Shown: positions 11,985-63,266 of the stretch, piece by piece
How positions within the stretch are numbered: position 1 is the first letter of the stretch
Layout of the letters: every line of letters begins with the position of its first letter
From: Polytrichum commune
Taxonomy: Eukaryota; Streptophyta; Polytrichopsida; Polytrichales; Polytrichaceae
NCBI GenBank assembly: GCA_950295325.1
Contig: OX485805.1
Span: 42,370,758 to 42,434,757, forward strand
Length of the DNA: 64,000 nucleotides
Direction: 5' to 3'
Made by a program: the position numbers and the translations under genes
The notes under the pieces: generated by a model
The model's input: the letters and a program-made list of their open reading frames with translations, nothing else
Told to the model about the DNA's origin: nothing
Database searches by the model: none

Positions 11985-12720
11985 GTTGTTTCTACAATTT
12001 TCTCCAGTGACCTCCCCGTGCACCAAAGGTTTAGTTGCTCGTCTTTTCCCATCGTTGGAAAACGTTGGCCTATGTTGTTTATCTTCGATGCATGCTTCAC
12101 AAATCAACAAAGATCTAGGACAAATATTTTCTCAAAGGTTCATATCATTCACCATGTTTTGAAGACACTCTTCATATTCAAAAATATCCAAACCAATGAT
12201 GCCAAGACTTAAGTGTGCATTCTTTCTTTTATAATTGTACCAAATCGGCCACATCTACTTCATGCACTTGGTAAAGTTTATTACATACAAATTGTCTTCA
12301 CATAGTCTTATTGCAATCACCTCTCCATCCAGATCTCTTACACTATATTCCTTTAGGTTGAATTGCACTTCCATTTCATTCAACAAAAGTTTGCTCACTG
12401 GGAGAAAATTTGTTTATAGCTTGAGCACATAGAGGGCATCTTTGATACAAATTATTTTCGTTTTGCCTTTTATCATCATCTCAACTACAATTGAGTCCAT
12501 TCGGATTGCTTCCATGACACTATCATTACCCAAATAGGCACTACGTGGAGCAATTACCTCGTGTGTGTCAAATGTCATCAAAAGTCATATATTTCGTTGT
12601 TCATGAATCCATAATCCACTTTAGCATGGTCTCTCAATGGTGGTGGTGATCAAATATACATTGAATATACCTGTCATGTAAACTAAGATCGTTAAACACA
12701 ACAGATCGAGTGTCGTCATC
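11985..12720 (-). pseudogene. Ty1/copia pol fragment (protease to GAG-pre-integrase)
   Basis: Minus-strand translation shows a broken copia polyprotein. The protease entry motif reads WIMDS followed by a stop where copia elements have an aspartate-serine-glycine site (about 12,600–12,620). Next come a recognisable stretch with REVIAPR, AYLG.DSV and IKDALYV, and then the conserved LYVI region. The fragment near 12,000–12,110 carries CEACIEDKQHR, the zinc-binding segment just before the integrase core. Reading is interrupted by several stops and frame changes, and the reverse transcriptase half is missing. Orientation is the same as the gypsy element to its right. It is an old truncated insertion with no expected function. 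Confidence 0.8.
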
Positions 12721-13104: not shown

Positions 13105-13281
13105 CTAATCATGACCATTAACGGTCATGGAGTGGGAGGCTTTCCGACAACAAGGACAAACCCAATTGCCAGAAGGAAAAGTCAAAAGGGGAGGTGTCAA
13201 ACATGCCATGTGCCATCCACGTTGACAATGGTCGCACAATAACATCGTTGCAGCTCCTTTCTTCTCTCCACACACATAACA
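13105..13281 (-). CDS. PHD finger at the integrase C-terminus
   Basis: The last 58 codons of pol encode a full C4HC3 zinc finger: Cys pairs CYVC and CDHC, then WHMAC with the histidine, then CPCC. Spacing is C-x2-C-x11-C-x2-C-x4-H-x2-C-x14-C-x2-C, with the tryptophan two residues before the seventh ligand, as in canonical PHD fingers. PHD fingers in other proteins read the histone H3 tail, either methylated or unmodified at lysine 4. In this place it could guide integration to marked chromatin, much as chromodomains do in chromoviruses; that role is inference. The frame here is intact from 13,764 to the TAG at 13,105–13,107. Confidence 0.88.
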   Translation of the reverse strand, partial: CYVCGEKKGAATMLLCDHCQRGWHMACLTPPLLTFPSGNWVCPCCRKASHSMTVNGHD

Positions 13282-14432
13282 AGGCAGACCCTGTGGTACA
13301 ACCGCCAACTCGGGATGCACAGAGCCGTCGATGGGAAGGTAATATGGAGCACAATTTTTTGAATGCTCACGACATTCCCGTCCATCCTTGCCTTCAAGCA
13401 ATAATATACCACTTGCTAAGACATCTTTTACCCACAAAATTGTGCGCCCAGCCTTGACATCCAATGTCGTAGGCGCCTCCCGTTGCAAGTAAACATAACC
13501 CCCCTTGGAAAATCTACGAACCTGAGGTCGATAAGCTCCACTGCAGATCCGGGCATACCGTAATGTATCACGATGTTGAGCTATGTTTAAGTTTTCCATG
13601 GCCATAGGCATGGCCTTTTGAAAGAATTCTGCTCGGTCATGAAGACATTGAGCCCAAACATCTGGATCATCCAAGTCTACCACAGGAGCCAATTTCTCTT
13701 GCACAGAGCTAGGTGAAATTAGTTCCCGTCCATACAAGAGTTGGTAAGGACTATAGAATGCCAAAGATGTTTACTTGCTGAAACGGTAATCCATTGCTAT
13801 CCATGGTAACATCAAGTCCCAATCGCGATGGTTGCCATGAAACAACCCATACTTCCGCAAACCGCGCTTGACAATCTGAACAACTCGTTCAGCTAAGCCA
13901 TCTGCCTCAGGGTGATCTCTGGAAGTTGTTCGATGATCAATTAAAGCCTTAGTACACAAAGCCTCGAAAGATCCAAGAAATTATCTCCCTTGATCCGTCA
14001 ACACCTCTGCAGGTGCTCCAAACCGTGCCAAAACTCGATCAAGAAATGCCATAGCCGCCAATTCTAAGGAATTTTGGGGAAGAGCCACGAGTTCAATCCA
14101 CTTACTAAAATGCTCCACCATCACAAGTACATACTTTGCCCCACGTGAAGTGACAGTAAGCGGTCCGGCAAAATCCAAAGACCAACGATATCCCAAGCCC
14201 ATAATAGGTAAAGGCTGGAGTTGAGGTGATAAAGTATTAAAACTTGACCTGACCCGGTTACACACTTCACACCTAGAAACATAAGTGGCAACCTGTTGAT
14301 ACATCCCAGTCCACCAATATTGGTTGCGCAACATAGAGTGTGTCCTTCGCACTCCAAAATGTCCAAGCTCCTCGTGCACTTGCCGCACTAAAGAAGCTCT
14401 TTGATCTGGCCTTGGAACGATGCGCCTCGTTC
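13282..14432 (-). pseudogene. Integrase of the gypsy element
   Basis: Resumes the pol frame after the solo LTR. The zinc-binding HHCC domain is seen as HEELGHFGVRRTHSML followed by CEVCNRV. The catalytic core shows SLDFAGPLTV, EVLTDQG and, after a stop at 13,981–13,983, HPEADGLAER, giving the two aspartates and the glutamate of retroviral-type integrases. Another stop lies at 13,771–13,773 just before YSPYQLLYGRE, the end of the core. A C-terminal region with YVYLQREAP and VLLLEG-like strands corresponds to the DNA-binding part. It would insert the cDNA copy into host chromatin. The order after RNase H confirms a Ty3/gypsy and not a copia lineage. Confidence 0.9.
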
Positions 14433-14437
14433 CGTTT

Positions 14438-15416
14438 TGTCGCAACCCTTGCTAGCCCCCTTAACAATCTTGCCAATTTGCAATTCTATCAAAGGTTACG
14501 AGTCGCTAACCCTTCGCATACTGCCATGCTAATGGTTAGCTCCTCTCACCCCGGACCTTATAGTTCATAGGAGGGGAACCAACCCTCCTACTTTGCTTTA
14601 CTTCGGGATTCACCCCTTTAATTGGTAACCAATCCTTAGATGTGGACTTCCATCCATGGAAGTCCAATCTTATGTTGATCATCGCGTTGCCGAAGCAACA
14701 CTACAACAACCCGAACCATACTAGGCAACTATGGCCTCACATTAGGCCAATGCCAATGGAGGCCGTGCCGTTCGGCCTCGGGTGGGTGAGGCCACACCAC
14801 CTCACCCATATAAGCCTCTAGGACTCTACGCGGGACCCCTACCTCACCGTCAAGAGACCTCTTGTCTCTCTACCAAGAGTTGGGGCCAAGTGGACATTTT
14901 CCCTTAGCTGCTGGGCCTAGAAGCCCCTAGCAGCTTCAGACCATCATAACTTCCTTGTTTGATGTCTGATCTTAACAACCAACCACTCCATCTTCATCTA
15001 CGCTTCACGTAGATGCCGATGGACTCCTCACTTGCCCCATTTGGGCAAGTATTGACGAAGTTATGCCTGTTTGAACCTTGGCAGTCCCGGGAATCACTCC
15101 CAGGCACTGCTGTACCAGGGCGCTGTCCCGGGACAGCGCCCCACTCAAATGGCCATAACTCCTAGCTCACACCTCCGATTGAGGTGTTCTTGAGCATTCT
15201 AGAATCACCATGCCATGAGCTACGCATAGCTCATGGCCTTACCCTCATGCCTCCTAGTCTCCGTGGGTGGGAGGCGTTCCCAACGCCCGGGGCCCTCACC
15301 CACACTAGGATCACTTGGGCCCTCTCACCAATGGCGCCACAAGTCCCGGGTGTCACTCCGGGGTCCCCCTTGTGCCCATGGTGTTTCGGGCACTCCTTAT
15401 GGAGAGGTGCGCGACA
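14438..15416. mobile_element. Solo LTR nested in the gypsy pol gene
   Basis: A 979 bp insertion that begins TGTCGCAACCC and ends GTGCGCGACA, i.e. the TG...CA ends of an LTR with a TGTCGC/GCGACA inverted repeat. The 5 bp CGTTT is duplicated on both sides (14,433–14,437 and 15,417–15,421). Removing the insert plus one duplication rejoins the pol frame exactly between RNase H and integrase. The interior has no retroviral domain. It must come from a different LTR element, since it lies in the middle of this one's coding region. Orientation cannot be decided from the ends alone. Confidence 0.88.
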
Positions 15417-17232: not shown

Positions 17233-17559
17233 CTAGTCCGTGGAGAGGGCAACACCTTTGCCCCCATCATCTATACTTGAATCCAAATGCGTATCCTCTC
17301 CACTACAATCAGTTTGTGTAGCTAAATAGCTACCCACATATGAAGTGTCACCAAGAAATAGAAGTGGAAATATTTTATGGGCCTCCAACTTCCCAAAATC
17401 TTGGGCCAAAGCTGAAAAAACACGTTGGGCTCGAAACTCTTCCGCAACCTGTTGTTTCAAAGAAGATAATCCCTCGGTGTCATTGACCTCCATGCGATCC
17501 TTGGATTGCGGCTCCATTGCCCCCTGACCATTGTTCTCTACCCTCAGAGGAAACAATTG

Positions 17560-18787
17560 GTTATCCATACGTTGTTGAGCAGCAAGACAAATTCCAATTA
17601 TCCACACAATGCTATTGAGATCCATAGCTTCTCCCAATAGGAAACGTCTCTGACCTTCCTGAAGCCCATGAGCAGCTGTAGTGCCTGTAGGAAAACCCAT
17701 GGCTCGTTCCCGCTTATTTGCCATAGGCTCATCATGAGTTTGGGATTTTGTATCCCAAACCATGTCTGGTCCACGAGATCGAAATGCAAAAGATTGTGGA
17801 TATGTCACAAAAGTAGGTAGTGCACCTCTCGGAATTCCCACTTTGTTAATTAATGCAAATGGCAAGGTGTCATCCTTGGTAACTGCCAAAGAAACACGAT
17901 GAGCATCTAAAATATCATCCACCTTGCGATTCATAAGGCGGGGAATGTGGGCGATCACCGCTGAAAGCACCTGAGGTAATACCAAATTGGTCCAAAGCCA
18001 ACGAGGCCGATGAGCAAAGGATCCCAAAGATGCAACATCCAGAAATGTTGGAGTAACCAAAATTTGGTTAATGTACTCACCATCCTTCACCACTTTGTGC
18101 CGTGTATCATCCAATAATGACACAGTTTCAAAAATGTACCCTGGCGGAGTTGATTGGTGGGTAAACCACCATTATGTCAATCACATCAAATCCGCGAACA
18201 AACTAGACCTAGGATCATCCAAACCCTGATCAGTTCCTGCCCGTGAATGGCCTTGACAAGGCCATCCTGCAATAATTAAATCCACGTGGCCCAATCTTCT
18301 CAAATCCTCATCACTAATCATAGTGACATCTTGAGGAAGTGACCACAACATCCAAGAATGGCAGAGGCTGACAATTGTGCGGGGTACCTCAACAACAATT
18401 GTTGAATGTGGTGTCGGACGGCTCTGTTGGCTGCATATCCATTATCCACATGAATATATCGCCTAACTGTAATCCCAGCCTCCAACACTGCCGCCAAACC
18501 TGTGCCAATGCCCCCAAAGATTTTTACAAGGACAATACCTTCAGGTGGTGGTTGCCAACGAATGGGTTGAGCAAAAGAAATTGAGGATGACGTTGGAGGT
18601 GTCTTTCCAAGCCCCAAATCTACTACAATGTGTCGACAATGGTCGGATAACTCCTTAGGAGTACGCCATGGTGGAGGTGGATCCTTGAAATGTCGAGCAG
18701 AAATTTGTAACGATGACAAAATTTGTTGCTCTGCTGCATGTGAGGCCAAACCCCCCACCCTTAAGCGTCCGTAGTCCGAGTAGCGGG
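17560..18787 (-). pseudogene. C5 cytosine DNA methyltransferase domain embedded in pol
   Basis: Predicted to transfer a methyl group from S-adenosylmethionine to cytosine C5 in DNA. Motif I, the cofactor-binding loop, is KIFGGIGTGLAA near 18,490–18,520. Motif II follows as YIHVDNGYAA. Motif IV, with the catalytic cysteine, is AGWPCQGHSRAG, the Cys codon being 18,256–18,258. Motif VI appears as IFETV where the family usually has ENV: the glutamate is kept but Asn is Thr. Motif VIII is AHRPRWLWTNL. Motifs IX–X are RERAMGFPTGTT and RRFLLGEAMDLN, ending near 17,570. All hallmark motifs are therefore present in order over about 320 codons. Damage in this copy: a frameshift near 18,340–18,360 between motifs II and IV, and stops at 18,181–18,183 (TGA) and 18,172–18,174 (TAA). 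Roughly 100 residues of linker precede the RT. No separate regulatory domain is seen. Confidence 0.9.
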
Positions 18788-20771: not shown

Positions 20772-21521
20772 TCACACTGCATTACAAGCGTAGTCCAATG
20801 TTTCCTCCAACAAAACTGGAGCACAAGGTAAATCCGCAACTGAACCGCTGCAACCAAACATTGCCTCCGCAACCATAGTCATAGAAGTAGCTGCAAATGC
20901 TACAGGAATAAATACCTTCATGCCATCTCCAGAAGACCATCCCGGTCTAATCCATGCCTCTTCAGTCCAATTATCCAAACCAAAGCCAAGTGGATAAAGA
21001 GCTTGCTGACCAACAAGTATATCATAGTTGGTAGCATTAATAACAACACACTTCATTGACAAATGGGTGTAGGTAGGTCCTGCCCCCACATTAAAAATCA
21101 AACGTAGAGGTGCCTTGGTGTAACCTGTTGCACGTTCAGTACCCCCTACTGAAGTCATAATTGTGAATGGACAATGATCTAAGTTTGTTGGCGTCAATCC
21201 AAGACTGTCAGCAAGTCCTTTGCCAATCATAACCGGTTGAGCACCGGAATCCATCATAACTCTCAGTGGTGTAGCACGAATAGTAGGCATATCCGCGCGT
21301 GAAACGACAAAGAAAGATTTGTCGTTCATCAGCCGTACAACTCCAGGTTGCAAATTATGCCGCTCGCGAGCAGGCCTTGCAGAAATATCTACAAGATATG
21401 CCGCTCCCGCTGCATAATGCGAAAATGACGTGTCCACTGCTGAAATTGTTGATGGAGGAATATCAGTGTGCTTATCAAAAGCAATGATCGCCGCATCCGC
21501 AAGGCTCGCTCGTAAATTGGC
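20772..21521 (-). pseudogene. Retrotransposon aspartic protease
   Basis: Continuation of the gag frame after an in-frame TAA at 21,522–21,524. The active-site motif is VMMDSGAQPVMIG: aspartate-serine-glycine-alanine preceded by hydrophobic residues, as in retropepsins. A later hydrophobic segment, YDILVGQQALYPLG, matches the second conserved loop of these proteases. The enzyme would release gag, methyltransferase, RT and integrase from the polyprotein. The frame stops at TGA (20,772–20,774), immediately at the site where a 1,965 bp element later inserted. The codons beyond the insertion (from 18,787 downward) continue in the same frame toward the methyltransferase, so the TGA is probably a mutated sense codon and not a natural end. 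Confidence 0.85.
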
Positions 21522-21902: not shown

Positions 21903-23372
21903 TTATGATCGCGTAGAAGCCGCAGCCACCACCTCTCCAGATGCCCCAAACATATACATGTCCGACCCTGAGGTGCCACCACCCGCATGCGGCTCAGAAA
22001 TTTGAGCAAAAGATGCAGAAGATTTGAGCTTTTGCTCAAGCTCTACCACCTTAGCCTCAAGACTCTGCTCCCTTGAAGATTTTCCAGTGACATAACTGGC
22101 AGGCCGCATCTCAGGATGAAGTTGGAAACAATGATCTACATCGTGATTAGTGCCACCACAATGGTTACATTTCAATTGTCTCTTCTTAGAATTGTCCCCT
22201 GCCTTTACTGGTTCCATCTTTTGTTTTAATTTTCCCAAAGGCTGAGTTTTCTTCTTCTTAGGACAATTGGGATCATTCTTCGAATGACCAGCTTCTCCAC
22301 AACCCCAACAATGCAAAATCTTTTGCTCCTTAACGGGTTGAGTCTCAGCTAAACTACTAGTAGCTGTGACAATTCTTCTTGATTTCGTACTCTCTGTCAT
22401 CCAAGATACCATGTCTGTGGCATCGTGTTGACAAAGAGCCCGATCACACCTCTCAACCACGGCAAACGCTTGTGCAAGCGTAGCTCTGCCTTCGTAGTCG
22501 AGAATAATCCGAGGTGATGCCAACTCAAGTAGCCGCTTGTCAATCTTAGACAAAAAGATTTTGACAAACTGACTCTCACCAAAAACACCTCCCGATTCAA
22601 CAGCAAAGCGTGCGAGTCGCGTATACATGGTCCGTGGAGTGTCATCCTTCTCTCGGCGGAAATCCTGAATGCGTTGCATCTGGTCTCGCCGAAATCCACC
22701 ATACTCCACCTCCAAATGTGCGACAAATTCAGCAAGGGGATTAAATGGAGGTGGTGGACCAACAGCCGTCAATGCTGCATGTGTAGCACGTGCCATCCGT
22801 GAAAGGGTAGCCGTGCTACTGCCAACCACTATTGGCCCAAGTGCCAGTTCTTTGTCCTTAGACTCCTCCGGCGATTCCTCCTCCTTTAAGGTGGGTGGAG
22901 CTAAGGTAGCAACCGCCCCATCTTTAAGGGCTGAAATAAGCTCAACCCGAGCCTCCCAATACTGCTCCACCTCCCGAAGTTGTCGCTGATGACCCTCTGT
23001 CCAACGTTCATAAGTTTGGAGTGCCTCATACTCCAAATGTTGAGGCAGAAGTTCAAAGGCATACCAATCATTGAAATTGGAAGACCTTTGACGTTTCTCC
23101 TTAATCCAGGTACGAAACCGGAGTTTCCAATCGGGCAAGGAAATGCCCCCAGCTCGACCTGAAAACCGATCACGCACTGAATTGTGACGATCGTCCTTCA
23201 TTTCGTCGAACGTGCCGACACTCCAAATCCGAAGCCTACTAGTCGTGTCCAACGCCGAAATAGGCTCAAAAGCCTCGTTGGTATCTACCTCTGGCTCAAG
23301 ATTTGTGGTATGCACGTCCTCCAAGTAATCTGGTGATGGAGATCGATAATATCGGCTCCTAGTTTGCACCAT
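21903..23372 (-). CDS. Gag polyprotein with two zinc knuckles
   Basis: Open frame of 489 codons starting at an ATG (MVQTRSRYY) and ending at TAA. The first 330 residues are helix-rich and charged, as in retrotransposon capsid domains that assemble virus-like particles. Near residues 350–410 are two cysteine-histidine boxes. The first is CWGCGEAGHSKNDPNC, with spacing C-x2-C-x4-H-x6-C, slightly longer than usual. The second is CNHCGGTNHDVDHC, with the standard C-x2-C-x4-H-x4-C. These bind RNA in related elements. A predicted coiled-coil-like segment with repeated leucine and glutamate follows (about 430–455). After the stop the same frame stays open for about 125 codons (21,522–21,899), probably the gag–protease linker, so the TAA is either the true gag end or a later mutation. 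Confidence 0.85.
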   Translation of the reverse strand: MVQTRSRYYRSPSPDYLEDVHTTNLEPEVDTNEAFEPISALDTTSRLRIWSVGTFDEMKDDRHNSVRDRFSGRAGGISLPDWKLRFRTWIKEKRQRSSNFNDWYAFELLPQHLEYEALQTYERWTEGHQRQLREVEQYWEARVELISALKDGAVATLAPPTLKEEESPEESKDKELALGPIVVGSSTATLSRMARATHAALTAVGPPPPFNPLAEFVAHLEVEYGGFRRDQMQRIQDFRREKDDTPRTMYTRLARFAVESGGVFGESQFVKIFLSKIDKRLLELASPRIILDYEGRATLAQAFAVVERCDRALCQHDATDMVSWMTESTKSRRIVTATSSLAETQPVKEQKILHCWGCGEAGHSKNDPNCPKKKKTQPLGKLKQKMEPVKAGDNSKKRQLKCNHCGGTNHDVDHCFQLHPEMRPASYVTGKSSREQSLEAKVVELEQKLKSSASFAQISEPHAGGGTSGSDMYMFGASGEVVAAASTRS

Positions 23373-23536
23373 AAAATAATCACTTGAGTTCCTGCAACTA
23401 CCTACAAGGTAATGGCAACCTGCACCTGTTGCGGGCTATCTAAATGGCAATTCCTTGCCAAATGCCAAGTGTTTATTTATGCCCCCACAATTCCAAAATT
23501 GTGCAAAGGTTTCGAGATTGGTAATTAAAATTAAAA

Positions 23537-24170: not shown

Positions 24171-24889
24171 GTTTTAAAAGAACAAAAATTAAACTTTGCT
24201 TCCACAATTTGCAAGCAAGAAAGATGTGACTTGAGATTCCATTTGGTCTCAAGATTCAACCATCAACAATTCAAGAAAACACAAAGAGACACCAAAAGAG
24301 AAATGTGAAGATTTTTCTCAAAATCTTTTTGAGGGTTGCAAGGAATTGCAAACTAAGCTTTCATACACTTGTATCACTCATTTGTTCCCACTACTGGGCC
24401 CTTTTAGCTCAGAAATACAACCAAAAATGAAAAATAAGCGCATTGTTGTCAAGTATGGGGGTTTCTCTCTCCAAGCTCAAGAAACTAAGAAATCTTCTTA
24501 CAAAGCTCAAGAAACTCTGAAATTCACACACAAGAGTCAAGCTATCTCTCACTCCACAAAGGGAGAATCCAAGAGTGCAAGTGATGGAGAAAGAATGCAA
24601 AGGCTTTACTCATGATCTACTACACCATAGCCATAAGATAGCAACAACAAGCTCTCTCTCTCTCTCAAAACACACTCACAAGACTTGACTTGACAACAAT
24701 GGCAAGTCAAGATGCCTTCCTCTCCACATAACCCCAATCCTATGTGGATTTCATCCATGGAGTGGATGAACAACTAACTAGGACTCCCAATGGAGTCCAT
24801 AATCCATCCAAACACACATGGACTCCTAATGGAGTCCATTTACTCCTAATTTGACGTGACTTGGCCCCCGATGTCGCCTCACGTGACAT
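24171..24889. other. Intergenic, no gene seen
   Basis: Short frames without recognisable domain. A CT-repeat lies near 24,649–24,664. The word ATGGAGTCCAT occurs twice between 24,790 and 24,840. Confidence 0.5.
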
Positions 24890-25160
24890 ACCGGTGGTGA
24901 TCAAATATACATTGAATATGTCGGTGGTGATGGTGGTGATCAAATATACATTGAATATGTCGGTGGTGATGGTGGTGATCAAATATACAATGAATATGCC
25001 GGTGGTGATCAAATATACATTGAATATGTCGGTGGTGATGGTGGTGATCAAATATACAATGAATATGCTGGTGGTGATGGTGGTGATCAAATATACAATG
25101 AATATGCTGGTGGTGACGGTGGTGATCAAATATACAATGAATATGCTAGTGGTGATGGTT
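24890..25160. repeat. 39 bp minisatellite related to copia sequence
   Basis: About seven head-to-tail units built on GGTGGTGAT plus CAAATATACAATGAATAT. Most are 39 bp and some 30 bp, lacking one GGTGGTGAT block. All lengths are multiples of three, so frames run through without stops, but the resulting peptide is low-complexity and not supported as a gene. One unit-like copy lies inside the copia fragment near 12,641–12,670, suggesting the array grew from a copia-derived seed. Confidence 0.85.
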
Positions 25161-39879: not shown

Positions 39880-42440
39880 CTAAACCTTCTGCCCCCTCCT
39901 CCCCGGATGTGTCCCACCTCCAACATCATTTTCGTCTCCTGCCTCCCTCCTCTCTCCCTCCATTACTGTGAAAACATCTTTGTCGCCACTGGACTCTTCC
40001 TGGCCCAGTGAATGCTCCACACCTGTTGCAGTTAGTCGCCTTCCACGGGCCTCCATCTGCAGAATAACACTCCATCCAGGGTTCGCCTTGTCTACCACAA
40101 AAATGCCTGCACACGTTCATTTCGGATGTCATCAAACAACATACTTAGGGTCCCCCCTATTCACGCACATGTGCGGCATAGGATGCAGCGACCATGGGTG
40201 GGTACCTGCGTTGCCAGTGAAGGAAGTATGTATGGATCTTTGTTGGAACGTGGCATTGCAGCCATGTTTGCAAGCCAAAACCCATGTGAGTCTCGTCGCA
40301 TCTGTGGCTGCAACTCGGTATTGGGGGCCACCCATGACACCACCATCAACACAACATTCATGTTCAAATAATTCAGCACCGTGATGTTTTTCAATGTCCC
40401 AACTCTTAATAAGTCGACATGTCCGCCTGGTGCCGGCGAGTCATTGCCATCGATGCGATGCCCCAACTCCGCAACTCCGCTATCGAATGTCACATTATTC
40501 TCACTTATTTCCTCGACCTTGACTCGATAGTGCGAGACATATGTGGTCATGCTCCTAAATGAGAACACCCTCCTTGATGGAGGGCTCGACAATGCTTTCA
40601 GTTCGTGCAATTCAGTGTCGACGCAATCTTCCAAAGTTGCACACCGCTCCCGCAGCCACCTTCTGAATGGCTCCATCGGCTCTTCACATGCCAACTCATT
40701 TTCGTACTCTCTGTTCACAGCACCACACATGTCCTTGATAACCATCCTTTATGTCTGCAACATATGTAGACAACATGCGAACTTCAAAATTCAGTATCAA
40801 CTTGTACCTACCGGCGCATCTCCCAAGTCCGGGGATGGTGTCCGAATGCCCGAATAACATCCTGCACCGACAACACGTCGACACGACCCCGTCCCTCCAC
40901 AACAAATCCCTTGTCCCTCCCTCTTATGTGGTTTCCCATACGTGACGTTTGATATGTCTGTGCAGGTTCAGGTACTCCGTGCAGAACCCTAGCACCTCAT
41001 TTGCCGCAAACCCGTTGGCCATTGATGCCTCTGGGTGCGCTCTACTTCGGACATATGATTTTAAAGTTCCCATATATCTCTCGCATGGGTACATCCATCG
41101 GCCCCCCACTAGGCCACACACCTCCATCTCATCCACCAAATGGATGAGAGTGTGCTCCATTATATCAAAAAATGCCAGTGGAAAACATACTTCCAAAATA
41201 TAGAATGTCTCTACAACATACAGTCGCAGCGCATTTATGTCGGCCTTATCTACGACCTTAGTGCAAATTTTGCTGAAACTCTTGCCTGACCTAATCAGTG
41301 CAGTTCTTTGTAAAGGTTGCAACAATGATCTAATAGCCACCGGTATGATTTGCTAGACTAAACAATGGTGATCATGAGATTCCAGACTTGTGAACCTTGA
41401 TTTCGTTACATGTTTGCCAAGTGCACTGCCGTACCATGTGGGTGTGCGGATTGCACTTATCTCGTCCACAAAAAATTTTCTTTCAGCATCGGTGAAAACA
41501 TATTGCGCGTGTGGCTTCAAAAATCATTGTCGGTTCGCTCGGGGTCTCGGCCAAAGCTCCCTGCATATCCCTAGTTCCTGCATGTCCCTCCTTGACTCCG
41601 GAGTGTCTTTCTCTCCAAAGAGGAACTTCAATACATATTCTGTAATATTCTTTTCTATATGCATAACGTCCAGCACATGGCGCACTGGCATGCCCTGCAC
41701 GCATGATATTAAAATTATCATTAACACGTAATCCTACCCTGCCACAGGTATTTGCCATAAATTATAAACTTAAGTGGAGTTACCTTCTAGTATGGCAGCG
41801 AGTATAATGCAGGTAGTCACTTCATAGCGATGCATAGCGTCGGGTCACCATCGCCTCCAATCCTTCCCCCAACCGTGCATACTCAACACGCATGTACGCC
41901 CAGCGGATGTAGCTTGACGCATCCATTGCAGCAGGTGCGCAGTCCAGCTCTTGTGTCGAACCTAAATGGATGGTTTGGAGGCAACCACCGTCGGTGCCTC
42001 CCGCCAAACATAATATTTGACAAACTTTATGAGTATCGTGCTTGAGTGTTTGGTCCGCACACTGGGCACGCACAATATCCTTTGTTCGCCGTACCAGCCA
42101 ACATGGTGTAGGCCGGAAAGTCGTATACGCACCACAACAACATTGCTCTTAATGTAAACACGGCCTCTCCTCGCCATCGGGCTGCATCGTAGCACGCTAC
42201 GCCCTCTGCCCATAGTTCCCTAAGCTCTTCTAGTAACGGGCTCAAGTAAACATCTATGTGATCAGCTGTCACTGCCTTGGGTCCAGGTATCAGAAGCGTC
42301 ATCATAATGAAATATTTCTTGATGGTCAGCCAAGGAGGTATGTTATAGTTTAATAACAATACATGACATAGTGAGTGAGTGGTCCTCTTCTGCGAATGTG
42401 GGTTCAAACCATCTGCGCATAATCCTAAATGGACATTCCT
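39880..42440 (-). pseudogene. CACTA (En/Spm) TNP2-type transposase relic
   Basis: Read on the minus strand from the right. A frame near 42,027–42,440 has GLCADGLNPHS, NYNIPPWLTIKKYFIM, LIPGPKAVTADHIDVYL, LRAMLLW and KGYCACPVC: the conserved TNP2 core with its zinc-binding CPVC. Near 41,524–41,727 RHVLDVMHIEKNITEYVL and MQELGICRELWP follow. The domain usually found after TNP2 (DUF4218) is at 40,924–41,340 with PLAFFDIMEHTLIHLVDE and YPCERYMGTLKSYVR. The last domain (DUF4216) spans 39,880–40,745, with VSHYRVKVEEI, DSHGFWLANMA and DPYILPS; its tail continues in another frame as FVVDKANPGWSV. Frame changes and gaps between blocks show it is inactive. The upstream end is cut at about 42,440, next to the large palindrome. 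CACTA-type terminal repeats were not found. Confidence 0.88.
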
Positions 42441-42472
42441 ACTGTCAGCCTACTCCTATTATATATTATATA

Positions 42473-42866
42473 TTTAATACCTTCTACTATCACAAAGTTT
42501 TCATACGCATTTAAAATAATTAATTAAGATTGAATGCAACTAAGTCTAATAAATTATGATTAGTCCTGATTAATCCTATTTAAGCCCAATTAAATCAGAA
42601 AATATGCATACCAAATTAATTAAGCCTAATTAATTATAAAATTTACTTACTGGAATTAATCATGATTTAAATGGAATTAACTCCAGTAAATACAATTTAT
42701 GATTAATCAGGCTTAATTAATTTGGTATGCATATTTTCTGATTTAATTGGGCTTAAATAGGATTAAGTAGGATTAATCAGAATTTATTAGACTTAGTTGC
42801 ATTCAATCTTACTTAATTAGTTTAAATGCGTATGAAAACTTTGTAATAGTAGAAGGTATTAAATTA
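42473..42866. repeat. 394 bp near-perfect palindrome
   Basis: Left arm about 42,473–42,665 and right arm about 42,670–42,866 are inverted copies at roughly 90% identity with almost no loop. Shared words include TTTTCATACGCATTTAAA, GATTGAATGCAACTAAGTC and AGAAAATATGCATACC. It is very AT-rich and non-coding. It sits exactly where the CACTA transposase is truncated. It fits a foldback-type MITE; transcription would give a long hairpin RNA. Confidence 0.9.
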
Positions 42867-54865: not shown

Positions 54866-55607
<742 letters not shown>

Positions 55608-61073: not shown

Positions 61074-63266
61074 TCACCTCTCCAGAGACTGAATAACCTT
61101 ACTCAGATCAAATTTTAGAGCTGGGAAGGACCCCAGTCTGAGAAATTTGAGCAATCGACTCTTGAGTTTATATCGTCGAAACCCATTGTCGGTTAGAATT
61201 CTTAGCAGAAATTCCAACTCGTTAAGAGCATCATGTTCGTTATTTGATAGGTACAGAATTGGAAAAGCTTGCGATTGGATGATGTTGTACGACTGCGAGA
61301 CACTCCGGTTGGATTTGAATTGTAAAAATTGTGAATACTGGAATGGAAGGTTTCGGCGTTTATCGAATTTGTGTGTTCGAAATATGCCATCGACTTCATT
61401 AATGATAGAAATTTGTATGTTCATAAAATGAGCACTTGTTCCTCGTTGTGGGAACATCGTAGAAAATCTATCAATTTCGCTTTTGATTTCAACTATCCCG
61501 AGAGGATAAATCCAGTAGGGGTTAGATGGTACTCTTTTGGCATTAGGGTCCAAAAATTGTATTATATCTCCGTTGTTTAAGACACATAGATCATCTATGT
61601 ATCGGAAAGAATGTCTGAATCTCCTCATTAGATCAGTCCTCCCGAGTGTGGCTAATCTTGTGATAAAGCTAGCTTCATATTGTAAAAAATACAGATTACA
61701 CCATAACGGACTGCAGGAAAAACCCATAGGTATTCCTGAAATCTGTCTCCAAACTCGGTCACCAAGGGTGACGAAACAGTTAGTGCTTAACCACTGGTTA
61801 AGCTGTATTAGTCTTGCTTCCCTGATTTCTACCCAAAGACCAGATTGCGGTGCCTGAGCTGCCCATTTCGTAGAGGAGGCAATCATCTTGGCTTCATCAA
61901 AGCGGACCCACAGTTTTTGTTCGGATTTCGGATGTTCAATTCGTTTCTGTTGAAAGGCATACGAAATTAATTTTGATATGGCTCCCATCAGATTGTCTTC
62001 CCCCTCAAGCGGTATAGCTTCATAGCAGTGTGCTATGTCGGCTACAAAAATATCGTGTATTGTCTCCGGCAGGTTAAGGACTAGATCCATCACTGAGTCA
62101 ATTACCCAGAAATTAGAGGTGTCAGTGTCCATTAACGAGCGGTAAGTCCGCGTACGCTTAGCAAACCATTGTTTCAGCGTAGGGAGAATACCCTTTAATG
62201 CCATAGTAATGAATTGTGCTATGGTGGAGTATATAGAATTGTGGGCATTTGTAAGCCATCTGTAGGTATTTTTGTGTTGCTTGAACGTACCCATCAGGTA
62301 TGGGAGACGAGCAGCTTGTAGAGGAATTTCCGGAAGAAGATTACAGATTTCTTCAAATAGCTCCTCTGCTTTATTCTGAGGGTTAGTCCATGAATTATTT
62401 TGTAGACAAGGGGCAAAATCTTTGCCCTGGAGTCTCAATAGTGCTTGAGCACGTATGTGCCTTATACAGATAAAGCTGGCATTTGAAGCCGCTTTATCTA
62501 GCCCGGCTATGAACAAACGTTCCTGGATCCATTGAAGTTCATCAATGGCTGAATGGATTTTCTTCCAAGAGGGTTGGGAGTATTTGTATCCGCCTTCATT
62601 CTTGGATGCTTTTTCTTTCAGAATCATCCACGTAGTATTTCTAATCCATAATGTTTGATCAGATGGGTCAATGTGTAAAATGGAACATACCTGTATCCAT
62701 GCATCAATCACTGTTTCGACAACCTCTTGTAGGCGAGTTTGTCTTAAAGGTATATGGTTGAGACCACTTTTGAAATTATTCTTCAAAATTGGGTCTCGGA
62801 TGATTTCAATGTTCATTGTGCGAACATGTATGTCTGTCAGCGAAGGGATTGTATGCACCGGGATAGTTTCCGCAGTGCTAGGGTCCAGGTATTTAGAGAA
62901 TCTTTTGGTGAGTTGACATGGACATGGTGATAGAAACGTGCTATTATCAAAAACGAAATCACGAAATACCTTTGCTGGTTTATACACTGTTGAGTGAAAC
63001 TGGTCATAGTATCTCCAGCCAAAGGTAATATTCTCCAGACAAGGAATGAGTCCATCATTTCCTTGTCTGCGAAGGGCATCGGCACAGATGTGACGTATGC
63101 TAACCCATTCCATCGCCCTATTAGGGTATAGAGAGTGCACAAAACCTATCCGTTTTATGTTAGACTCCTTACATATCGAATTTCTTCCCAATTCATCCTG
63201 TTTAACTGTTCTTGAAATTGCAATAGTATGGGAGGGATCTGTACATACCAGGATTAGTTTGTCAGC
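61074..63266 (-). CDS. Reverse transcriptase of a Penelope-like or related retroelement, intact frame
   Basis: One uninterrupted frame of about 730 codons, bounded upstream by TAA at 63,267–63,269 and ending TGA at 61,074. The first in-frame ATG is at 63,111–63,113 (MEWVSIRH), so the true start may be there or an upstream exon may exist. Counting from 63,191, residues 88–150 contain SPCPCQL and HVRTMNIEIIRD, then FIAGLDKAASN (about 227–237) and MGTFKQHKN. Catalytic motifs: VADIAHCYEAIP (about 383–394), GIPMGFSCSPLWCNLYF (486–502) and FRYIDDLCVLNN (529–540), followed by KFDKRRNLPF. The GIPMG...CNLY and RYIDD pattern differs from gypsy, copia and L1 elements. It resembles Penelope-like enzymes and a widespread invertebrate/algal RT family. 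No GIY-YIG endonuclease, RNase H or integrase is visible. The absence of stops suggests recent activity or selection. Confidence 0.8.
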   Translation of the reverse strand, partial: ADKLILVCTDPSHTIAISRTVKQDELGRNSICKESNIKRIGFVHSLYPNRAMEWVSIRHICADALRRQGNDGLIPCLENITFGWRYYDQFHSTVYKPAKVFRDFVFDNSTFLSPCPCQLTKRFSKYLDPSTAETIPVHTIPSLTDIHVRTMNIEIIRDPILKNNFKSGLNHIPLRQTRLQEVVETVIDAWIQVCSILHIDPSDQTLWIRNTTWMILKEKASKNEGGYKYSQPSWKKIHSAIDELQWIQERLFIAGLDKAASNASFICIRHIRAQALLRLQGKDFAPCLQNNSWTNPQNKAEELFEEICNLLPEIPLQAARLPYLMGTFKQHKNTYRWLTNAHNSIYSTIAQFITMALKGILPTLKQWFAKRTRTYRSLMDTDTSNFWVIDSVMDLVLNLPETIHDIFVADIAHCYEAIPLEGEDNLMGAISKLISYAFQQKRIEHPKSEQKLWVRFDEAKMIASSTKWAAQAPQSGLWVEIREARLIQLNQWLSTNCFVTLGDRVWRQISGIPMGFSCSPLWCNLYFLQYEASFITRLATLGRTDLMRRFRHSFRYIDDLCVLNNGDIIQFLDPNAKRVPSNPYWIYPLGIVEIKSEIDRFSTMFPQRGTSAHFMNIQISIINEVDGIFRTHKFDKRRNLPFQYSQFLQFKSNRSVSQSYNIIQSQAFPILYLSNNEHDALNELEFLLRILTDNGFRRYKLKSRLLKFLRLGSFPALKFDLSKVIQSLER

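Follow-up and report, generated by a model that had tools for sequence, protein, structure and literature searches.

A 64,000-nucleotide stretch of the Polytrichum commune genome (contig OX485805.1, positions 42,370,758 to 42,434,757; hereafter the window) was analysed. Its minus strand, at ~24.7-12.6 kb, was found to hold a degraded Ty3/gypsy retrotransposon with a C5-cytosine methyltransferase (MTase) between its protease and its reverse transcriptase (RT), as a preliminary description of the sequence had claimed. Pfam searches and comparison with relatives gave the minus-strand domain order Gag, protease, MTase, RT-RNase H, integrase and PHD finger, in open reading frames (ORFs) running from 23435 to 13105. 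The motif-IV piece of the MTase matched Pfam, and the other MTase pieces aligned with those of relatives. The same domain order was found in an intact copy, designated L001, and, judged from the reading frames compared here, the MTase belongs to the retrotransposon itself. The family appears, from its sequences, to span bryophytes and streptophyte algae. The overall reading that we favour, and regard as fairly probable, is that of a decayed MTase-bearing gypsy element with a DNMT3-like MTase fold, which would have expressed two products by way of a leaky stop codon, methylated DNA inside its particle and docked through its PHD finger.

Structure of the element

The features of the element (LTR, long terminal repeat; TSD, target-site duplication) are as follows, in its own 5′ to 3′ direction.

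24536..24714, minus strand: 5′ LTR/leader remnant; 73% to L001 7225-7390
21903..23435, minus strand: Gag ORF; zinc-knuckle-like CX2CX4HX4C by eye; first Met at ~23372; 54-62% to L001 Gag
21902-21522, minus strand: extension of Gag past a nonsense codon, in the same frame; P0022 has a sense codon at the 21902 boundary
20777..21521, minus strand: retroviral-type aspartic protease, its C-terminal side cut by a solo LTR; 62% to L001
18739..20776, minus strand: nested solo LTR, 2038 bp, TGTGAG...CTCACA (TG..CA ends), 5-bp TSD TGCAG; foreign to the element
18342..18738, minus strand: N-terminal part of the MTase, with S-adenosylmethionine-binding motif I FGGIGTG at 18518-18498; frameshift near 18340
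18184..18339, minus strand: MTase catalytic motif IV AGWPCQGHS, WPCQ at 18264-18253; in the other frame after the frameshift
17236..18171, minus strand: MTase motifs VI (ETV), VIII AHRPRWLWTNL, IX RERAMGF and X LLGEAMDLN; 62.5% to P0157
17227..17235, minus strand: in-frame TAG CAA TCA at the MTase/RT junction; leaky context of the tobacco mosaic virus (TMV) type; same in L001
15417..17232, minus strand: RT and RNase H, frame shared with the MTase tail; Pfam RVT_1 8.4e-30, RT_RNaseH 1e-38
14438..15416, minus strand: second nested solo LTR, 979 bp, TGTCGC...GCGACA, TSD AAACG; between RNase H and integrase; foreign to the element
13981..14437, minus strand: integrase H2C2 zinc-binding region and catalytic core; Integrase_H2C2 2.3e-19, rve 1.2e-9; 95% to L001
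13105..13770, minus strand: integrase C-terminal region with the PHD finger at its end (13281-13147); Pfam PHD 7.1e-9; 84% to L001
12782..12789, minus strand: polypurine tract AGGGGGGG, read in the sequence; same stretch in L001
to ~12640, minus strand: 3′ LTR remnant after the polypurine tract; nucleotide match to L001 stops at 12671

The element was assigned to Ty3/gypsy by its Gag zinc knuckle, its protease, the protease-RT-RNase H-integrase order with a DDE integrase, its polypurine tract and its LTRs; for this assignment the window RT was compared with its own nearest relatives, and the zinc knuckles of the window were read by eye. In Pfam, the Gag ORF gave a sub-threshold zinc finger only (E 0.017), and zf-CCHC was found in the relative P0162. 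The protease matched gag-asp_proteas (E 8.7e-5) and Asp_protease_2 (9.7e-5), both slightly below the curated cut-offs. The RT-RNase H was 84% identical to P0031 and 82% to L001, and the integrase core runs on, with nonsense codons, to 13771. No chromodomain was found by Pfam at the integrase C-terminus of the window (13105-13770, E≤0.1) or of P0031 (E≤0.01); a PHD finger is present instead, and the element was not classed as a chromovirus. No convincing site emerged when the plant initiator-tRNA primer-binding motif was sought, the single 2-mismatch match lying far off and being fewer than expected by chance. The window copy is dead: two solo LTRs are nested in it, its MTase carries a frameshift and two nonsense codons, and its LTRs are eroded. 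At its edges, a copia-like Gag-pol fragment, recognised by eye, apparently overwrites the 3′ LTR (12640-11990, minus strand), and a tandem array of seven copies of a 39-bp unit lies at 24893-25159, with one unit-like stretch in the 3′ LTR remnant near 12670-12640.

The methyltransferase in the window copy

The motif-I piece of the MTase was 93% identical to P0001 over 137 aa and 63% identical to P0157 over 90 aa, and the motif-IV piece was 98% identical to P0001 over 52 aa. The piece with motifs VI-X was 62.5% identical to P0157 over all 312 residues (E 2e-141), ending at the same final residue, and 55% to L001; motifs reach ~17560, after which a C-terminal tail of ~108 aa runs to the stop. 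The location of the MTase given in the preliminary description was confirmed, with corrections. When the minus-strand frames were checked against Pfam profiles, the motif-IV piece (DNA_methylase, 18441-18181, minus strand, E 1.5e-9, scoring 38.2 bits where the cutoff is 22), the RT, the integrase and the PHD finger matched, whereas the motif-I piece (18794-18318) and the motif VI-X piece (18171-17233), searched alone, gave no Pfam match at E≤0.1. In the family, the motifs of a C5-cytosine MTase occur in the order I, IV (PCQ), VI (ENV), VIII, IX and X: L001 has all six, and P0157 aligns throughout with the MTase pieces of the window. The window keeps this order, with ETV in motif VI as against ENV in P0030, P0157 and L001 and KNV in P0013.

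The domains had been described as lying in the same frame series. This was right once the solo LTR is allowed for, except that one frameshift splits motif I from motif IV: one frame is common to Gag, protease and motif I, and past the frameshift a second is common to motif IV, motifs VI-X, RT and integrase. Two nonsense codons lie between motifs IV and VI. Because of these lesions within the domain, the window copy cannot make the MTase. The upper boundary proposed for the MTase region, 18787, had to be abandoned, as it runs into the end of the 2,038-bp solo LTR (20776-18739). This LTR separates protease from MTase in the window copy and is absent from P0001, P0004, P0156 and L001, and the reading frame resumes in phase past both solo LTRs. 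Pairs of TSDs and terminal inverted repeats were not rare on the element's strand of the window (22 seen, where block-shuffled sequence gave 5.2 on average), so that a TSD alone is weak proof of insertion; the solo-LTR reading rests on the in-frame resumption and on the four uninterrupted relatives, not on the TSD. A separate insertion of the MTase was considered and rejected, since the adjoining TSD-bounded element is the solo LTR that those relatives lack.

The fusion in intact and uninterrupted relatives

L001 (CADCWO010000201.1, 9,285 bp) is filed under a cyanobacterial metagenome-assembled genome (MAG) and is taken to be mis-binned plant DNA. Prokaryote genome contigs scanned with the RT alignment A3 gave this one relative, and those scanned with the MTase VI-X piece gave none; in viral contigs, no relative was found with two window MTase pieces, the RT or A3. 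The ends of L001 overlap by 127 bp, which indicates a circular sequence with one LTR and fits either assembly collapse of two LTRs or a one-LTR circle. Its ORF1 is one open frame of Gag-protease-MTase (computed 1,346 aa) followed by a stop, after which ORF2 continues in the same frame for 1,047 codons of RT-RNase H-integrase-PHD. All six MTase motifs searched were present by pattern match. By tblastn, L001 matched the window pieces at 55-77% (MTase), 82% (RT), 95% (integrase core) and 84% (integrase-PHD). As with L001, the filing of P0157 as a protein of a Ca. Obscuribacterales MAG was regarded as contamination. Such plant-type element DNA in bacterial MAGs would mislead surveys of bacterial cytosine methyltransferases.

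Given the two solo LTRs nested in the window copy, the protease-MTase-RT order might be put down to accident, nested insertions having struck a gypsy element of the ordinary kind. This is refuted by L001 and P0156, and relatives read from protease into MTase and from MTase into RT uninterrupted; we give the accident practically no probability. P0001 runs unbroken from protease into MTase across the site of the window's solo LTR and on to motif IV, and P0156 is a single Gag-protease-MTase ORF of 1,228 aa. With the intact L001, these uninterrupted proteins establish that the fusion is real.

Relatives were collected by several searches. The motif-I piece gave 30 relatives among 162 candidates (sequences of 25 examined), and the MTase of P0088 as query gave 18 proteins, query included, among 1,747 candidates. 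The RT ORF gave 1,766 relatives among 7,989 scored candidates, and the best 120 of these 1,766 were examined. An MTase was detected with our own profile (E≤0.01) in at least 13 of the 120, many records not reaching upstream, and several of the 120 have a PHD finger at the end. In 11 of the 13 the MTase precedes the RT: P0049 and P0136 from Marchantia polymorpha, P0088, P0099, and seven Closterium records (P0108, P0109, P0134, P0145, P0146, P0149 and, weakly, P0097); P0088, P0099 and P0049 gave rows to the profile and match it by construction. In P0126 and P0138 the order differs, the MTase following the RT. Elsewhere, P0154 (Calypogeia fissa) is a protease-MTase, P0159 joins MTase, RT and integrase in a single ORF, and P0158 (Sphagnum magellanicum) holds MTase remnants and a PHD finger. 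In motif IV, WECQ replaces WPCQ in P0088, P0153, P0154, P0159 and P0161, the Cys being kept and the usual Pro replaced by Glu.

The link to MTase-bearing elements of charophytes suggested earlier thus stood in part. An MTase together with RT or protease was seen in Marchantia, Calypogeia, Closterium and, as remnants, Sphagnum, whereas the Riccia, Chara and Klebsormidium records were matched by RT only; in the K. nitens RT proteins P0064 and P0087 (42-44% identity to the window RT), our MTase profile found no MTase. For the 10 rows that contain MTase and RT alike, the trees of the two domains had 3 of 7 splits in common, and 7 of 2,000 label shuffles did as well; all three shared splits concern Closterium rows, and the deep forks are not settled. 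A quick-method RT tree of 76 rows, comprising the window's nearest relatives and P0159 only, was uninformative on the point at which the MTase was gained.

Class and origin of the methyltransferase

In the fold comparison, DNMT3 was nearest to the MTase, and a phmmer search of solved structures with P0157 gave a significant match that favoured DNMT3. Against the same structures, a profile of N-terminal fragments (A1) had no significant match, DNMT3A being the best at E 0.62, and the window motif VI-X piece alone gave no relative (one chance row, E 0.99). In sequence, phage enzymes are about as close to the MTase as DNMT3, some of them closer. It is conceivable, though in our judgement less likely than not, that the source of the MTase was an enzyme of bacteria or phages and not a host DNMT3 gene. 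Pointing that way, phrog_116 of PHROG matches P0157 over residues 22-337 (2.7e-24); the family profile scored a Psychrobacillus phage enzyme (91 bits) above a partial DNMT3A (79 bits); and with P0157 alone, five of six phage enzymes scored above the partial DNMT3A. Animal DNMT3 enzymes have PCN in motif IV and N-terminal PWWP and ADD domains. In the element family motif IV reads PCQ or ECQ, not the PCN of DNMT3A, and PCQ is found in the phage enzymes scored; Pfam found no PWWP or ADD in P0156 (E≤0.01). The split that groups the element MTases and DNMT3A against the six phage enzymes had a support of 86/91, which is not significant. One branch, with support 100/99, has the 15 element MTases together on one side. 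A phage-like origin, if true, would mean a separate capture from a different source.

The in-frame stop between methyltransferase and reverse transcriptase

The MTase frame of the window ends in a stop codon from which the RT frame continues, in the context GAC TAG CAA TCA CAG (AAG TAG CAA TCA CCG in L001). In both copies, UAG CAA UCA fits the type I readthrough sequence, UAG followed by CAR YYA. In the available text of PMC2754532, the type I leaky stop of TMV and beet necrotic yellow vein virus (BNYVV) is UAG followed by CAA UYA, and in that of PMC2194720, CAR-YYA by itself directs readthrough in TMV, murine leukaemia virus (MuLV) and soybean SIRE1 being named as examples of in-frame stops in retroelements. 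With the junction sites included, TAG-CAR-YYA accounted for 3 of the 1,649 TAGs on the two strands of the window and for 2 of the 187 in L001. Over the first 348 nt of ORF2 in L001, none of the frames offers an ATG; the earliest one in frame is codon 117, within the RT, so that separate initiation would cost part of the RT. Among the full MTase proteins obtained, P0157 is the closest, and its last residue coincides with that of the MTase frame in the window; P0156 continues for 28 residues past the aligned part. In the window's branch, the MTase was probably made with Gag, and RT-integrase-PHD by readthrough; the in-frame stop, which the preliminary description did not mention, is thus likely to alter the expression logic of the element.

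Several points weigh against readthrough. The branches of P0088, P0159 and P0108 read from MTase into RT without a stop, the stop context is known from two DNA copies only, and in the window the fifth codon past the stop is an in-frame ATG. The stop could be plain decay in the window, or simply the end of ORF1, with RT-integrase-PHD having a start of its own, perhaps internal or created by splicing; the MTase would still belong to the element. The first Met of the recorded proteins P0031, P0032 and P0034, which coincides with the beginning of the window ORF2, agrees with such a start, but start positions of metagenome proteins may be gene-finder choices, and the intact L001 has the same TAG CAA TCA with no ORF2 ATG for 348 nt. 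We therefore consider a separate start unlikely and prefer readthrough for the window's branch.

The PHD finger

The PHD finger claimed for the window was confirmed. A C4HC3 finger was recognised by Pfam at 13281-13147 (7.1e-9) and in P0031 (1.4e-11), and in the 17 aligned rows of alignment A4, seven of the eight zinc ligands were invariant, the last Cys not being among them. By sequence, the C-terminal finger matched the PHD fingers of CHD4, PHF12, UHRF1 and KDM5. The model of the integrase-PHD region was of low confidence (predicted local distance difference test, pLDDT, 71.6; predicted template modelling score 0.34), and only its PHD part (pLDDT ~79-87) was used. In Foldseek, this modelled part resembled DPF2/3, UHRF1, BAZ2A, BHC80 and ATXR5 at a root-mean-square deviation (rmsd) near 1, ranked below some PHF1 rows; the PHF1 rows at the top, with an rmsd of ~12, were not taken as real. 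Several of the PHD structures matched by fold were solved with histone H3 peptides, some of them unmodified according to the PDB titles. PHD fingers of the UHRF1, BHC80 and BAZ2A types read unmodified H3. By analogy, our guess is that the finger of the element may dock on H3 unmethylated at lysine 4 (H3K4me0).

Constraint on the methyltransferase and its proposed role

When the pooled MTase codons (365) of the window and L001 were compared, the nonsynonymous divergence (dN) was 0.28 and the synonymous divergence (dS) ~3, which is saturated, giving a ratio of ~0.09; the bootstrap range was 0.05-0.19, and 64 of the 200 replicates could not be used. Identity at the three codon positions was 0.71, 0.80 and 0.42. 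Because dS is saturated, the claim is limited to strong constraint, under which, by this codon comparison, the MTase has stood for most of the time since the window copy and L001 separated.

Such constraint bears on whether the MTase serves the host, or is a chance-captured passenger kept by linkage, with no role in transposition. The position of the MTase differs among members (after the RT in P0126 and P0138), as does motif IV (WECQ in the members named above), both of which would suit a passenger and speak against a role in the element's own cycle. On the other side, the motifs are kept in members whose identity to the window piece, or to P0088, is only ~33-46%, dN/dS is ~0.09 between window and L001 (dS saturated), and the placement of 15 element MTases on one side of the 100/99 branch points to long joint descent. 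A host-serving or passenger MTase is thus quite improbable, and a role of the MTase within the element is preferred.

As a hypothesis, this role may be self-methylation. ORF1 in intact members of the window's branch would be Gag-protease-MTase (~1,350 aa), and a minority of ribosomes would pass the leaky UAG CAA UCA into RT-RNase H-integrase-PHD (~1,050 aa). The amount of MTase would then be similar to that of Gag, and the enzyme would travel inside the particle; there it could methylate the double-stranded cDNA during synthesis, or later the flanks of the new insertion, and the integrase PHD finger would probably dock the complex on unmodified H3 tails. The MTase, if the stop is leaky, would be a particle component made with Gag and not a rare Pol enzyme. 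More tentatively, with somewhat less than even confidence, we suggest that the logic of DNMT3 has been rebuilt in two parts of a polyprotein, a writer joined to Gag-protease and produced in particle-forming amounts, and a PHD reader of unmodified H3, joined to the integrase and produced by readthrough only, bringing pre-methylated cDNA to chosen chromatin. If this is true, the element sets the epigenetic state of its own new copies.

Other features of the window

40161-42449, minus strand: remains of a DNA transposon (Transposase_21 1.4e-47, DUF4218 6.5e-27 and a weak DUF4216, on the same strand), which we take to be CACTA-type
42472-42864: inverted repeat with 189-nt arms, 93% complementary, and a 15-nt spacer; possibly a miniature inverted-repeat transposable element or a hairpin
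55131-55607, plus strand: ubiquitin-RPS27a fusion gene, whose observed/expected CpG ratio of 0.99, versus 0.62 for the window, suggests that it is unmethylated; the gene also suggests a land-plant nuclear genome and, with the named relatives of the element, probably a bryophyte
61074-63266, minus strand: 730-aa open frame with weak RT similarity (Pfam RVT_1 0.0014, below cutoff), possibly a Penelope-like element

Comparison with known systems

The closest known system is KnitGypsy-Dnmt3 of Klebsormidium nitens, compared here by its description in the available text of PMC5890265 (de Mendoza et al. 2018). It too is a gypsy element with LTRs whose coding region includes a DNMT3-type MTase, a likeness subject to the caveat that phage enzymes are about as close to the present MTase by sequence. 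Its MTase has conserved catalytic residues, is reported to be under purifying selection (Ka/Ks < 0.2) and is treated there as an acquisition in that lineage. The two differ in that the MTase of KnitGypsy-Dnmt3 lies in the Pol ORF, whereas here it ends ORF1, on the Gag side of UAG CAA UCA, and in that the window element ends in a PHD finger. The words 'PHD', 'protease', 'liverwort' and 'zygnem' do not occur in the main text of PMC5890265.

SymbioDIRS-Dnmt3 and SymbioLINE-Dnmt of Symbiodinium, from the same source, are also retroelements with cytosine MTases, but they belong to the DIRS (tyrosine recombinase) and LINE classes and not to LTR/gypsy elements with a DDE integrase. The same text describes de novo CG methylation in yeast by SymbioDIRS-Dnmt3 and none by the KnitGypsy domain, a result its authors called inconclusive. 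Animal DNMT3A, DNMT3B and DNMT3C differ from the element in motif IV (PCN, not PCQ or ECQ) and in the PWWP and ADD domains that P0156 lacks by Pfam; moreover, the histone-reader domain of the element, the PHD finger, sits on its integrase. The type I stops of TMV and BNYVV, together with MuLV and SIRE1 (available text of PMC2754532 and PMC2194720), resemble the present junction in having UAG followed by CAA UYA, or an in-frame stop between two retroelement products. Compared with stop suppression in MuLV and SIRE1, here the MTase, an accessory enzyme, would be among the more abundant products. Plant Ty3/gypsy lineages (Neumann et al. 2019, PMC6317226, as far as its text was available) share the RT-RNase H-integrase core; neither 'methyltransferase' nor 'PHD' occurs in the main text of that paper.

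Judged by titles and the starts of abstracts, searches of open-licence papers listed no account of gypsy elements with a DNMT from bryophytes or Closterium. This kind of element is itself known; apparently new are the land-plant and Closterium members, the PHD finger, and the Gag-side MTase with a shared leaky stop. With this family, the range of gypsy elements that bear a DNMT would grow from one charophyte to include land plants and zygnematophytes, and a possible reader-writer pair within one retroelement would be added. Why a mobile element carries an enzyme that normally silences it was a question raised in 2018 (PMC5890265, section 11), and members in Marchantia and Closterium, together with the intact L001, make it testable.
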